From the NCBI GenBank assembly GCA_021527695.1, contig JAKFAO010000003.1, positions 372,001 to 436,000 of the forward strand: a stretch of 64,000 bases of DNA, read 5' to 3'. The DNA comes from Naematelia aurantialba (lineage: Eukaryota > Basidiomycota > Tremellomycetes > Tremellales > Naemateliaceae). Shown piece after piece: positions 56,525-63,249 of the stretch (the first letter of the stretch is position 1; each line of letters starts with the position of its first letter). Position numbers and translations under genes: made by a program. The notes below the pieces were generated by a model, which worked only from the letters and a program-made list of their open reading frames with translations, was not told where the DNA came from and did not search any database.

Positions 56525-59500
56525 ATGCTAGGATTCCTCAAGGACAAGAAGAAGCGCAGGGAGACCCCCGAGCCTGTCCCGAGCAGCTTGGCCATGTCGG
56601 AACCGGACCCTCACAGGCAGGGCACGAGCGCCAGTCCTCACCCAACCCCGGCGTCAGCCATGCCCGTCACCCCTCCGTCGGCTCCCCTCAACACGGTCGC
56701 CTACGACACTGCCCGCCCCAGCGCCCCGGCCGTCGCGTTTGCAGACGCGCCTGCAGGGCCCCAGACGGCGGGGGGAGCGGCGTCTGCGCGCCGACCCAAC
56801 ACTGCCCGACCCGACACCGGCGTGTCTGAGATTGGCGACCTGCCCGCCAAGCAGTTCTTCCCCGAAAGCACCGACTTTGACGACGATGACGAGCAGGAGG
56901 ACGAGCCCGAAGACGGCGTCTTTGCCTTTAAGCGCCCGATCACGAGCGCTCAGTCTGGCGTTGCGTTTTCAGACTACACGTCCTCGGCGCCGACGACGGG
57001 CTTGCACCCCACCCCCGGCGCATCCGCGTCGGGCTCTGGCGCCCCAGGAACTGGTATCCTGAGGCGTGGCCCTCCGCCCCAGGTCACCGTGGTGGGCGAC
57101 CACAACCACAACCGCCGGGAGCTGGGCCTCAGACGAGGATCCGGCGACACCCAACTCAGCATCAAAGACGTCCCGCCACCGACGGGCGTCATCGATGTGG
57201 GCGGGCACCTGCCCGAAGTCGCGTACGACCCCAACAACCCCCCTCCGTTCAGCGGACGGCACAACCCCAACAACTCGAGCTTTGCATTCATGAACCGCCT
57301 GCACGACGAGGCGGTGGCCGCTCAAGGGCAGAGTCCTATGCTGCCGCAGCGCGAACGGGTAGCTCGGCGGCCGTTCTCCGGGCAGCTGTTTGACCGGCTT
57401 CACATGCGTCGCCGCAACCAGACGGCCACGACCACGGCGACAGCCACCACGACTGCCACTGAATTCACGACCGAGGCGTCGCACACCTCGGACGACTCGC
57501 TCGATCCCTCGGACGCCGGCTCGTTTGTCGCGGGGACGGCGGGGCGACCCCACCGGCCGCGCCGGGTCAAGTCGTCTCAGCCGCTCATTCAGCCTTCCAC
57601 GGCCGGAGGCGACTCGTTCATGACCGACTCTGATGTGCGCAGCCGCGGCGTCAGTCGCGGCAGTTACGGAATGACCGAAATCAGCGGCGACATGACCGTC
57701 GCCGACGGCAAGACGACGTATGGAGACGGCGCTGGCGGGTTCATCAAGGAAGAGGGAGACGCAGGCTTCGACGTCCTCGTCGAGGAGGACAGCCCATACC
57801 CCGAAGTCCGCGCGTCCGTGTCCAACATCGACGACCCCGAGATGCCAGGTATGTCCCATCGCGTCCTCCATGCCCCGTATCGCTAGTTGACAATCTCAGC
57901 TCTCACGTTGCGATCTTGGTGTCTGGGCATGACTTTCGCCATCATCGGTTCGGCCGTCAACACGTTCTTCCACTTTCGCACTCCGGCGCCTTATGTGTCG
58001 CCGCTCATTGTCCAGTAAGTGGCCGTAGCCGGTCTGCACCGTTTGTCCGTGCACGGCTCAGGCTGATCATACCGCTAGGGTCATCGCGTATCCGATCGGC
58101 AAGTTCTTTGCGTGGTGCATGCCTATCCGGGACTACCACCTGCCGCAGTTCGTGGGAGGACACGCGTTCTCGCTGAACCCGGGGCCGTTCAACATCAAGG
58201 AACACACGATCATCGTCATGATGGCCAATGTGGCGATTGGGCCGGCCTACGCGCTGTACGCCACCGTGTCGTCCGAGCTGTTTTACAAGCACGATTTCGG
58301 CGTCGTCTTTAATATCCTGTATGTGCTCGCGACGCAGCTCACGGGATTCGCCTTTGCAGGCATGGCGCGCCGGTTTGTCATCTGGCCAGCGAGCATGATC
58401 TGGCCAGGCAATCTCGTGGTCGCTACGAATCTCAACACGTTCCACGCAGAGGACGACGGCTTTACGGGAGGTATCAGCAGGTATCGGTTCTTGATGATCT
58501 GGATGGGCGCGGCGTTTGCGTGGTACTTCCTGCCGGGTGAGTCCGAGTCAGATGTCCGCCATTGTCACGATTATCATCCTTGTCATCACTGCCACGATTG
58601 TCTCGACTGCCACAATTGTCACAATTGCAACGGTTGTCATCTTTGTATCACTGCCGCGACTGCCGCGATTCAGAGCACCGAGCGCCCACCAGACTCCTGT
58701 TGCAGCCAGTGCCCAACAGCGTCAGCTGACGTGCCCAGGCTTCCTCTTCACCGCCTTGTCGTACTTTTCCTACGCGTGCTGGATCGCGCCCAACAACCGC
58801 GTCGTCAACGAGTTGTTTGGCAGTGCGACGGGCCTGGGAATGGGGATCCTGACGTTTGACTGGAGTCAGATAACGTGGATCGGATCGCCACTGACCAGTC
58901 CGTGGTGGGCCGAGGTCAATGTCGGTGTGGGATTCGTCTTGTTTTACTGGATCCTCGTCCCGGTCCTCTACTACAACAACGTGGGTCTCTTGTCTCTCTG
59001 TTCTTGTCTCTTGTCTTGTCTCTCTTGTTTTGTCTTGTCTCTTGTTCTTGTCTCTTGTCTCTTGTCTCTTGTCTCTTGTCTCTTGTCTCTTGTCTCTTGT
59101 CTCTTGTCTCCGCTCCCCTGCAGCGCGCTTTCTTGACTCTTCTCCATTGCCGCTAGCGTTCTCGTCTCTTGTCCGTCGCCGCTCCGTTCTCAACTCTGGT
59201 CTTGTCTCCTGTCTTTCGATTCGTCGCACTTGACTCGTCCCCCCACTAACCCCTCCAGGTATGGCAGACGGCATATCTCCCGATGAATGTGATCGAGGTG
59301 GCAGATCGATTCGGTGACTCGTACGACATCTTCAATGTGCTCACGCCGGACGTCGATCTCAACATCACCGCGTACGCCGAGTACTCGCCCATCTACCTTT
59401 CCGCCTCGTTCAGCATGACGTACATGCTGGCCTTTGCGCTATCGACGGCGCTTATCGTGCATACGGCACTCCATCACGGGCCGCGGATCTACCGCGCCAT

Positions 59501-61064
59501 CATCAACGTCAAGACGGAGGCAGACGACGTGCACATGAAACTCATGCGCACGTACCCCGACGTCCCGCATTGGTGGTACTTGATCCTCTTTGTCGTGTTC
59601 TTTGTCATCTCCGTCGTTGCCATCGAGGTGTTCCACACCGGCCTCCCCGTGTGGGGATACATCCTCAGCATTCTCTTGCCGTTCATCTACGTCATTCCGG
59701 CAGCATTCATCTATGCCATGACGTCGCAACTCATCGCTATCAACCTCCTCGCCGAGCTCATTCCGGGCTACATCTTCCAAGGGCAGCCTATCCCAGGCAT
59801 GGTGAGTTGCTTCCTGTATGACGAGCCGCTGCTGACGAGTCCCCTCGTACCCTTTTCCCGCGCGTATTCTCGCATCCTCTACTCCATGTCACCTCTCTCG
59901 CCCGCCACCCGCACTACCCCACACGCTATCGGTGCCGCCATCCAACAGATCTTCAAAGCCTTCTCGGTCCAAACCGTCACAGAAACCCTGACGTTCCTGC
60001 AAGACCAGAAACTAGGGCACTACATGAAGATTCCGCCTCGTGCGACATTCTTTGTCCAGATCAGCGCGACGACCGTCACGTGTTTAATCCAGATCGCCAC
60101 GAAAGAGGTCTTGTTCAAGACTGTCTCTGATATTTGCGGAAGTAACCAGAAACATCTCTTGACTTGTGCTTCTACGAAGGTCTTTTTCTCGTCGTCGGTG
60201 GTCTGGTGAGTCTCTGTTTCTTGTTCCGGGATGGTGTTGCTCGGAGCTGTGTTTGCCACATTACACACCACACTTCGCACCACCTGGTACAAGTCGCGCC
60301 CAAACACGGCACACCTCTGCCCCTACACATGTCACATGTACGCGCGCGCAAGTCGCACATAAACACGCACCACACCTCTGCTACTTTGCGTGTCGCACGC
60401 ACGAACACTCAAGTCGGGACCCGTCCGGCGGATCAATGCGATATCTTGCTCATTTGCTCACGCTGGTGCAGGGGATTGATCGGTCCCGAGCGGCTGTTCT
60501 CCAAAGGATCCATGTTCTATCCTCAAACCTTCGCGGCTCTCGCCGGCGCCCTCCTACCTATCCCTCTGTGGCTCTGGGTCCGTCGCTGGCCCCGATCCAT
60601 CTTCCGCAACGTCAACCTTCCGGTCATCTTCAACGGCGCGTTGGCCATCCCGCCAGCGACAGGTGTCAACTATGCCTCGTGGCTTGTCACTGGGGCCATC
60701 TTCCAGTTCTACATGCGACGACGCAATTTCGCCTGGTGGTCCAAGGTCGGCTTTTGTTATGTTTGCACATGAGGAGCAGCGAGCTGACGGCAATGGCAGT
60801 ACAACTACGTTTTGAGTGCCGCACTGGATGTCGGGACGGCCATGTCGGCCGTGGTGATCTTCCTCGTTTTGGATCTTCCTGGCGCCTCGCTCAGCTGGTG
60901 GGGCAACGAGGTGTACAAGAACAGTGAGTGGGAGGGCGCCGGCGCACCCTTGGCTTTGGGCTCCATGCTGATGGGACATCTTAGCTGCCGACTGGACGGC
61001 TGAAGGTGCATCTTATCTTACCCCGCCCGCGACTGGTTTCGGGCCCGACACGTGGAAAGTTTAG
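56525..61064 (+). CDS. OPT-family oligopeptide transporter
   Basis: Proton-coupled importer of small peptides or related compounds at the plasma membrane. Seen: nine exons, 56525..57848, 57900..58014, 58079..58536, 58739..58980, 59259..59801, 59949..60205, 60472..60745, 60800..60923, 60985..61064, giving 1138 aa. About 440 N-terminal residues are disordered and phospho-site-rich (Ser/Thr/Pro), with an acidic patch (DFDDDDEQEDEPEDG). The membrane part then shows OPT landmarks: TLRSWCLGMTFAIIGSAVNT, FNIKEHTIIVMMANVAIGPA (the NPGPFN-KEH motif), YWILVPVLYYNN, SPIYLSASFSMTYMLAFALS, GLPVWGYILSILLPFIYVIP, IPGYIFQGQPIPGM, HYMKIPPRATFFVQI, GPERLFSKGSMFYP and SWWGNEVYKN. About 12-16 helices are expected. 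It is tail to tail with a Qsp1-like peptide precursor gene. Confidence 0.95.
58985..59112. repeat. TCTTGTC heptamer array in an OPT intron
   Basis: About 14 units of TCTTGTC, some degenerate, within intron 58981..59258. Confidence 0.93.
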
Positions 61065-61599
61065 AACCGTCTCGTGGCGCGAAAGCACACGAGACGCAGA
61101 TCGACCGCGTCTGACAAGGGCTTGAATGTGTGTAGTCGTATATATCTCGCCTCGTCTCTTCCCCCCTGTGACCTGTTCTGTGCCACCCTGTCCATCGCGT
61201 CACCCATGCTCTTGTGCCGCATCACCATGTTCTGCAACCACGTCATCGTCTCCATGATACTGCCATCATCCATACCATCCAGTCTATGACGTCCCTCGTC
61301 TGGCCAGCGGTCCCGACCAGGCTAGACGCGCGGTGTACATCGCTCGACCGTCGGCTCTTCCTATATCCCACCTGGGTTTCTCCAGGCTGTGCCTGGGGGT
61401 CCTTGTGGTTATATGCTGTAGATGTCTATCTCGCTTCTTTGGCGTGTTCTTTTTCTTTGGCCGGGGCTGCCGTTCGTTGTACCATATTGGGCTTGGTTGG
61501 TCAAGTTTGTCGTTTGTCGTATATCGAGATGAGGCGCAGGTGGTTACGCTTGGGGTGGTGTTTATTGCCGGTTATGGACTGCTAAGGGGGGGGTGGGGG

Positions 61600-61684
61600 G
61601 AGTGTAGGGTGTGATGATGGAGTGGGAGGAGTGTAGAGTGTGATGATGGAGTGGGAGGAGTGTAGAGAGTGTGATGGAGTGGGA
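61600..61684. repeat. GATGGAGTGGGAGGAGTGTA tandem repeat
   Basis: About three units of 27-28 bp, purine-rich on the plus strand. Confidence 0.88.
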
Positions 61685-62043
61685 GCGGGCAGGGGTAGTG
61701 TGTGCGGACGGCAGTGGGTAAATTGCAGTCTTCAGCACCTCGTGTATGTACTTGTAGATTACCTGCATAATGACAAACCGATATCATTTGTGCTTGTGCC
61801 TGTGCGGTGCTGTTATCTACGAGTGCTACGTGGTGCTTGTGGCCAGGGATCCGATATTGTGGTTTGTCGTTCTAGCCTCTTTAGCATTCTAGCCTCGTAG
61901 TCATTATAGCCTCCTTGTCATTCTAGCATCTTGTTCCAGCCTCTTTGCCATTCTAGCATCTTGTTCTAGCTCTCGCGGCAGTCGCCAGTACTGCCCGTGC
62001 GTATACTCCGCCGCATCACGTTGACGCTGATCATCCGAGATCC

Positions 62044-62090
62044 ACAATCGACAATCGACAATCGACAATCGACAATCATTCGCCATTCGC
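62044..62090. repeat. CGACAAT array (about 5 copies)
   Basis: Perfect octamer-like units CAATCGACAATCGA, followed by a CATTCGC triplicate. Confidence 0.88.
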
Positions 62091-62814
62091 CATTCGCCAC
62101 TCATGCCACAACCGCCCATGCAACACCAGCCGCCTCACCGCCGTATCACCTTGCTACTAGACAGCCATGTTCCCATTCCCGTACTCGGCAGCGACAACGG
62201 CATGCCATGCACCTTGCTGGTCAGGAACTGCATTCATCGAACTGCATTCGTCCATCCAATGATACATGGCTAACGCTCTTCGACGTCTACCTGCTCTACC
62301 ATCTACCGCTCCGTAACGCCAAGTAAGCAACAGGGAAAGTCAAGCACGAAAGCCCGCAGGAACAGGAACACCAGAAGCCGGGAGGAAAGGGAGCCAGCCT
62401 AAGAAGAAGACTGGTATAACGGGACACGGCATGCGGGATGCAGCAGGTTGCTCGATTCGGACAGAAGAATGGCAATCGCCGCTTCTTGCAGAAAGTCCCG
62501 TCTCTGCGAGCTACTGGAATGCCAGCGAAGCCCGCGGGCAAGCGGGACGAAGTGGACATAGAGTGAAGCATGGCCGGGCGCGCACGAGATTGAGGTCGGA
62601 ACGATATGTCGAGAGCAGCGAGAGAGAATTCAGCGTAAAGCACCGAGGTAACGGGGGTCAAGGGCATAGGCGAATCGAGCAGAGTCGAGTCGAGATGGAA
62701 GGCGGGAGTCCGGAAGCAGGAAGAAAGACCAGTAAGAATGCATCGACAGAAGAGAAGCACGGTCAGCGCGGCTCACCCTCGCGATCAAACCTGAAATCAA
62801 TACTCACCCGACCA

Positions 62815-63249
62815 TCACTCCCCATCCGGCTCTTCCTTGATAAATGGCTTGGGGCAGCCTCCGCCGAGAGGGCACGGCTCCCGCTTGACGGACGCGGGCG
62901 TACCACGGCCCTCTTGCAGGTGCTTGGCGAACGGAGTGGCGCCGCAGGGACCGAAAAAGCACTCTCGTGCCCGCTTAAGCGGCTGCGGCGCATCACTGTC
63001 TTCTGGCTCGGTTTTGATAAAGGGATTGGCGCCGCCAGGGCCAAAGTAGTTGGACTCGCGCTTCACAAGTGTATCGACGTCATCGTCGGCACGGTCCTGG
63101 CGCTCGACAAATGGTTGCACACGGACGCTGCCTCCGCCACGGACGAAGAAGGCGTCGACGGCGTTGTCGTGGCGCATGGCTGGGAGAGGCATCGCGAGTG
63201 CCGCGGGCGCAAGCAGCGCAAAGATAAGCACCAACAGACGGAACTGCAT
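62815..63249 (-). CDS. Secreted repeat-peptide preproprotein (Kex2-processed, Qsp1-like)
   Basis: Intronless ORF of 144 aa from the ATG at 63247-63249. Residues 1-19 form a classic signal peptide (MQFRLLVLIFALLAPAALA). Lys-Arg dipeptides at 63-64, 92-93 and 122-123 are Kex2-type sites that divide the protein into repeats of about 30 residues. Each unit has a Phe/Gly-rich core ending in Pro-Phe: AFFVRGGG...VQPFVE, NYFGPGGANPFIK, CFFGPCGATPFAK and CPLGGGCPKPFIK, followed by an acidic/Pro-rich spacer. Units 3 and 4 carry closely spaced Cys pairs. The NYFGPGGANPF core resembles Cryptococcus Qsp1 as I remember it. The frame is open upstream to a Met at 63495, but the signal peptide argues for 63249. 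Function is inferred, not shown. Confidence 0.85.
   Translation of the reverse strand: MQFRLLVLIFALLAPAALAMPLPAMRHDNAVDAFFVRGGGSVRVQPFVERQDRADDDVDTLVKRESNYFGPGGANPFIKTEPEDSDAPQPLKRARECFFGPCGATPFAKHLQEGRGTPASVKREPCPLGGGCPKPFIKEEPDGE

Follow-up and report, generated by a model that had tools for sequence, protein, structure and literature searches.

A candidate Qsp1-like, Kex2-processed repeat peptide precursor beside an Opt1 orthologue in Naematelia aurantialba

In Cryptococcus neoformans the peptide Qsp1 is released as a pro-peptide, undergoes extracellular maturation by Pqp1 (CNAG_00150; PMC6687208), is imported by Opt1 and acts inside the cell via Liv3 (a WOPR factor), Nrg1 and Cqs2 (PMC7537855). 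Qsp1 comes from "a larger precursor" (PMC3203159); its gene, CNAG_03012, is known as QSP1 or CQS1 (PMC6687208; PMC8561399) and has been listed as a short hypothetical protein, likely an incomplete annotation (PMC3618354). QSP1 and OPT1 have a common intergenic region (PMC2848560; PMC8187385), and are therefore neighbors in that species. Here we describe a comparable pair in the jelly fungus Naematelia aurantialba, lying in a stretch of 64,000 nucleotides (assembly GCA_021527695.1, contig JAKFAO010000003.1, positions 372,001 to 436,000, forward strand), the whole of which we call the window and whose numbering we use throughout: a gene for a predicted secreted repeat-peptide precursor with one Qsp1-like core, adjoining an orthologue of OPT1. 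We put the probability at roughly 0.7 that in this member of the Tremellales the precursor is the counterpart of QSP1, acting together with the Opt1 importer beside it, on the grounds of a core match at six of eleven residues and of the Opt1 orthologue next door.

The precursor gene (62815–63249, minus strand) has one exon of 144 codons plus stop, and its product combines a signal-peptide-like N-terminus with 30-residue repeat units separated by Lys-Arg (KR) sites. The protein starts MQFR-LLVLIFALLAPAALA|MP, which has signal-peptide shape by the −3,−1 rule; the predicted cut follows ALA at the end of residues 1–19 (63193–63249), and the top 10-residue mean hydropathy of this N-terminus is 3.41. 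KR occurs at residues 63, 92 and 122 (residues 63–64 at 63058–63063, 92–93 at 62971–62976 and 122–123 at 62881–62886), while RR, RK and KK are absent from the 144 residues. The dipeptide PF falls at residues 46, 76, 106 and 135 (spacing 30/30/29) and defines the register of four cores, all on the minus strand. Core 2, NYFGPGGANPF (residues 67–77, 63019–63051), is the Qsp1-like one and stands in the unit KR-ES-NYFGPGGANPF-IKTEPED...; core 3, CFFGPCGATPF (97–107, 62929–62961), stands in KR-ARE-CFFGPCGATPF-AKHLQEG...; and core 4, CPLGGGCPKPF (126–136, 62842–62874), in KR-EP-CPLGGGCPKPF-IKEEPDGE. Core 1, RGGGSVRVQPF (37–47, 63109–63141), retains just a Gly run and PF. The best internal match over 13 residues scores 44, as high as none of 1000 shuffles (shuffle maximum 41), and the residues common to core pairs, of 13, number 8 for cores 2 and 3, 6 for 2 and 4, and 5 for 3 and 4. 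Cys residues pair at 97/102 (C-x4-C) in core 3 and at 126/132 (C-x5-C) in core 4, a spacing from which disulfide rings are possible. The original prediction, which had described a 144-residue reading frame with a signal peptide, three KR sites, two Cys pairs and a Kex2-processed-repeat layout, agrees with all of this, the signal peptide again as a prediction; it named no strand, and its four diverged cores become three clear ones and a degenerate first that no KR precedes. A donor-like GTGAGT motif starts seven bases past the stop codon (62802–62807, minus strand), so an intron in the 3′ untranslated region is possible.

This layout can be set against the published definition of Kex2-processed repeat proteins (KEPs), which asks for a signal peptide, identical or nearly identical repeats, Kex2 sites between them and at least four fragments (PMC6339444). 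The precursor has a predicted signal peptide (MQFRLLVLIFALLAPAALA|MP, judged by rule) and internal repeats in the 30-residue register with their match of 44, and its three KR sites would yield four fragments, the number required at the first cut-off of that study's pipeline.

Aligned without gaps, core 2 and Qsp1 (NFGAPGGAYPW) are identical at N1, P5, G6, G7, A8 and P10, and both end in an aromatic residue. The pair scores 35 by BLOSUM62, where Qsp1 against itself scores 70. This score was reached by 5 of 20,000 shuffles of the precursor protein, and among the 99,379 stop-free 11-mers of the six-frame window core 2 is the sole one to reach it, the next scoring 26. An inactive analogue of Qsp1, NFGAPGAAYPW, differs from it at G7 alone (PMC5959073); the equivalent residue is Gly in cores 2 and 3, and Cys in core 4. 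PMC9426920 has this Qsp1 sequence in its results, and the one additional C-terminal residue in the methods of that paper is probably a slip.

The neighboring gene (56525–61064, plus strand) encodes an OPT-family transporter of 1138 residues in nine exons: 56525–57848, 57900–58014, 58079–58536, 58739–58980, 59259–59801, 59949–60205, 60472–60745, 60800–60923 and 60985–61064. The model was built by hand with GT-AG introns, one weak donor and no frameshift. Its product matches PF03169 (E = 4.8e-190) over profile positions 2–622 of 623, after an N-terminal extension of ~440 residues. In a protein search restricted to the 7995 candidates with the most words in common with it, the best 120 of 1902 matches were headed by Tremellomycete proteins (N. 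encephala at 79% identity, Kwoniella at 72–76%, Cryptococcus at 73–75%), and the best C. neoformans protein among these listed matches has 73% identity. The latter (P0010) carries P358, M484 and W932, three residues that a mutation table assigns to CNAG_03013, that is OPT1 (PMC8092252), and we take it as Opt1 because of this agreement. Searching the N. aurantialba genome in return with P0010 gave 29 rows. Six lie at the window locus, five of them covering the transporter domain at 65–76% identity and the sixth the N-terminal extension at 52%; the 23 at other OPT loci have 28–51%, the 51% spanning just 66 residues. Manual grouping of 42 domain matches gives nine OPT loci in the genome. In a tree of 22 rows, made up of the window transporter and 21 of the 120 proteins listed, this transporter pairs with N. 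encephala at support 100/100, within a Tremellomycete group of 17 rows; the other OPT genes of the genome are outside this tree, so orthology to Opt1 rests on the forward and back searches. Intron 4, at 278 bp, is the longest of the eight (two others exceed 200 bp), and a low-complexity run of CTTGTCTCTTGT repeats was seen in it by eye, at 59000–59110. Two equal-scoring OPT genes at C5:11675-14229 and C6:10346-12900, 10–14 kb from contig starts, are perhaps a recent subtelomeric duplication.

The transporter and precursor genes are convergent and separated by 61065–62814: by codon score, none of the 19 open reading frames (ORFs) of at least 50 codons wholly inside this stretch rises above zero (best −12.3 bits). 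With no positively scoring ORF in between, the two look like immediate neighbors, so that the precursor adjoins an OPT1 orthologue as QSP1 adjoins OPT1 in C. neoformans. A genome of 5860 genes has been reported for N. aurantialba NX-20 (PMC8777972), and the chance that a random gene adjoins Opt1 is then about 2/5860. The Qsp1-like reading given in the original prediction is strengthened by this Opt1 orthologue, which that prediction missed. Short tandem repeats were noted by eye in the intergenic stretch, at 61600–61690 and 62045–62080.

Several points weigh against a QSP1 counterpart; they concern the codons of the precursor, its other cores, its position relative to Opt1 and the outcome of database searches. 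The codons bear on whether the ORF is a gene at all. Across the same stretch the opposite strand has an open frame of 312 codons, and the precursor might thus be a spurious ORF antisense to a longer reading frame. A score on synonymous choice by itself is 0.189 for the sense frame, 0.197 for the opposite frame within the gene and 0.269 for the transporter, and does not separate the strands. Codon turnover, too, is lower for cores 2 and 4 (two of six common residues encoded by different codons) and for cores 3 and 4 (three of five) than for cores 2 and 3 (six of eight). The whole-codon score, from a model for which four long reading frames in the window, that of the Opt1-like transporter included, served as training set, gives a different answer: +21.7 bits for the sense frame versus +9.0 for the opposite frame inside the gene and −55.8 for the part of that frame outside it. 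Per codon, the score of the precursor is matched by 6 of the window's 310 ORFs that run from stop to stop over 100 codons or more, and the training set accounts for at least two of the six. Between cores 2 and 3 the amino acids are kept although the codons have changed, the pattern one would predict for an old repeat maintained at the protein level, and it is the minus strand that carries the predicted signal peptide and the KR register. Neither the opposite frame nor the precursor has a Pfam match. With introns ignored, no other ATG-initiated ORF of 40 codons or more in the region from 53 to 64 kb combines a strongly hydrophobic start with KR sites. The codon statistics favor the minus strand, though not by every measure; we regard an antisense artifact as extremely improbable and the observation of a precursor, as a prediction from sequence, as real and confirmed.

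The likeness to Qsp1 is far weaker in the three cores other than core 2: the score is 20 for core 3 and 4 for core 1, and core 4 falls below the six best 11-mers listed, where the mean best of the shuffles is 11.1. Gene order differs as well. Coordinates of C. neoformans OPT1 rise from P358 at 211,137 to W932 at 213,165 (PMC8092252), which places its start near 210.0 kb; CNAG_03013 and CNAG_03012 are both touched by an inversion of the first ~210 kb (PMC3618354), and from the two together we infer that QSP1 lies 5′ of OPT1 there. The precursor here is 3′ of Opt1, so adjacency seems to have been kept and order not; the side of OPT1 is not known to be a defining feature of the system. A small local inversion would explain the difference, which we offer as a proposal only. 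On the 5′ side of Opt1, down to 53 kb, there is no ORF that combines a strongly hydrophobic start with a KR, as a QSP1-like gene would. In addition, the comparison with Qsp1 covers the core and the neighboring gene. Finally, the full-length precursor retrieved 77 candidates from 5.8 billion proteins, none at E ≤ 10, and a four-row profile of the precursor units and the Qsp1 core gave nothing at E ≤ 10 among the 7994 candidates of a capped set that were scored; by our estimate a lone 11-residue core would be undetectable at that threshold in a database so large, in either search.

The same observations (cores 1 and 4 far from Qsp1, a gene order apparently unlike that of C. neoformans, no relative in protein searches) would suit an ordinary KEP precursor, whether for a Rep1-like repellent, a pheromone-like or an antimicrobial peptide, that stands beside Opt1 by chance and resembles Qsp1 through Gly/Pro composition. 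Basidiomycota have many KEPs of great diversity, 5.30 per strain (PMC7329392). Two coincidences would however be needed, a core match of the kind seen in 5 of 20,000 shuffles and an adjacency expected for about 2 genes in 5860, and KEPs are scarce in Tremellomycetes at 1.00 per strain (PMC7329392). We consider this explanation unlikely, though worth keeping in mind, and prefer the QSP1 counterpart.

We found no second copy of the precursor in the genome, where the locus itself was the only match. A DNA pattern that encodes P-x-G-A-x-P and then has a TKB codon (Phe, Trp, Cys or Leu) had 76 genomic matches (36 forward, 40 reverse), and its reversed control 60 (34 and 26). Two of the 76 are in the precursor gene and two others read PGGAxP[FW]; these two other loci were judged by KR alone and set aside, with none in up to 100 residues before or 80 after the match. 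Scans of the window against Rfam and for tRNAs found nothing, and a promoter scan, which used a bacterial model, was uninformative.

As the QSP1 counterpart, the precursor would enter the secretory path by its signal peptide, and kexin, for which the genome has one match, would cut after the three KR sites to release pro-peptides of ~21–30 residues, each of them a Gly/Pro core ending in PF and then a charged tail. If maturation follows that of C. neoformans, the tail would be trimmed by a Pqp1-type serine protease outside the cell, leaving peptides of ~11 residues that would accumulate with cell density. Orthology and adjacency suggest Opt1 as their importer, and once inside the cell they would act on gene expression, presumably via a WOPR factor. 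The genome has WOPR-factor matches at two loci; such factors are common in fungi, so this is weak evidence. Cores 3 and 4 would act as sister signals, perhaps in the form of disulfide rings. It is even conceivable that several different imported signals from one precursor, one linear and Qsp1-like and two disulfide-ringed, are read as a blend through the single transporter, but this is a tentative idea on which we would not give even odds.

Upstream (5′) of the precursor lies a CTU2-like gene (cytoplasmic tRNA 2-thiolation protein 2; L063:934-2259, minus strand; PF10288, E = 5.4e-8) that extends beyond the window edge and should be useful as a synteny anchor of the locus in other species. The genes flanking the precursor are thus this one and the transporter, and not tailoring enzymes of the kind that would cyclize the cores if the protein were the precursor of a ribosomally synthesized and post-translationally modified peptide (RiPP) of the dikaritin/ustiloxin type. 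Precursors of the ustiloxin and phomopsin type, a subset of KEPs, likewise have a signal peptide and Kex2-spaced repeats (PMC7329392). They differ from ours in their conserved Tyr core, Tyr being found here in one core only. No match to UstYa/DUF3328 (PF11807) was found in the whole genome, a weak negative, as control genomes gave none either. We judge a RiPP very improbable, and this part of the original prediction is left without support. Its description of the precursor as undescribed fits the literature and database results: among 5.39 million papers we found none pairing Qsp1 with Tremell*, the main Qsp1 papers (2007, 2016 and 2018) being in subscription journals outside the scope of that search, and no protein match at E ≤ 10. 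Overall its interpretation is partly supported.

N. aurantialba is the edible 'Jin Er' mushroom. Its dimorphism is the subject of a published study (PMC11355420, by its title). A QSP1 counterpart next to Opt1 in such a jelly fungus would suggest that the pair predates Cryptococcus and did not arise as an invention of pathogenicity, and that peptide signaling of this kind between fungal cells may go further back and take more forms than has been recognized. It would also supply a search rule for further signals, namely to look beside an Opt1-like gene; close Opt1 relatives occur in several genera of Tremellales and Trichosporonales among the best 120 of the 1902 matches. The question raised is why one precursor should hold several diverged cores. 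If the blend were true, this would be multi-word peptide quorum sensing in a eukaryote, a jelly fungus.

Among described systems, Ascomycete alpha-pheromone precursors also contain Kex2-spaced short peptides within one protein. They differ in that a dipeptide of the Ste13 type (XA or XP) follows KR in just one of the three units here (KR-EP, the others being KR-ES and KR-AR), and Trp is absent from every core. KEPs in general are like the precursor in signal peptide, internal repeats and KR between repeats, and unlike it in having identical or nearly identical repeats where ours are diverged; the place beside Opt1 is a further difference. One KEP type, which might be QSP1 itself, is common to Talaromyces and Cryptococcus (PMC7329392), and Cryptococcus relatives may already stand there unnamed. 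A KEP of the Tremellomycete Trichosporon oleaginosus has the repeated peptide QSWGGCGGRGTPCW, called alpha-pheromone-like (PMC6339444), unlike the Qsp1-like reading preferred here; that peptide is Gly-rich, with two Cys and a Pro near its aromatic C-terminus, as are cores 3 and 4, and our guess is that it is kin to these or to Qsp1-like peptides rather than a pheromone. Qsp1 itself is likewise among the closest systems. It and the candidate described here both have an eleven-residue core with N1, P5-G-G-A8, P10 and an aromatic end, a secreted precursor (here predicted) and a gene adjoining that for Opt1 (here its orthologue), while in N. aurantialba the gene is 3′ of Opt1 and convergent with it, and the cores end in PF, not PW. 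What is new here is that one precursor holds several diverged cores, three to four in number, two of them with Cys pairs.
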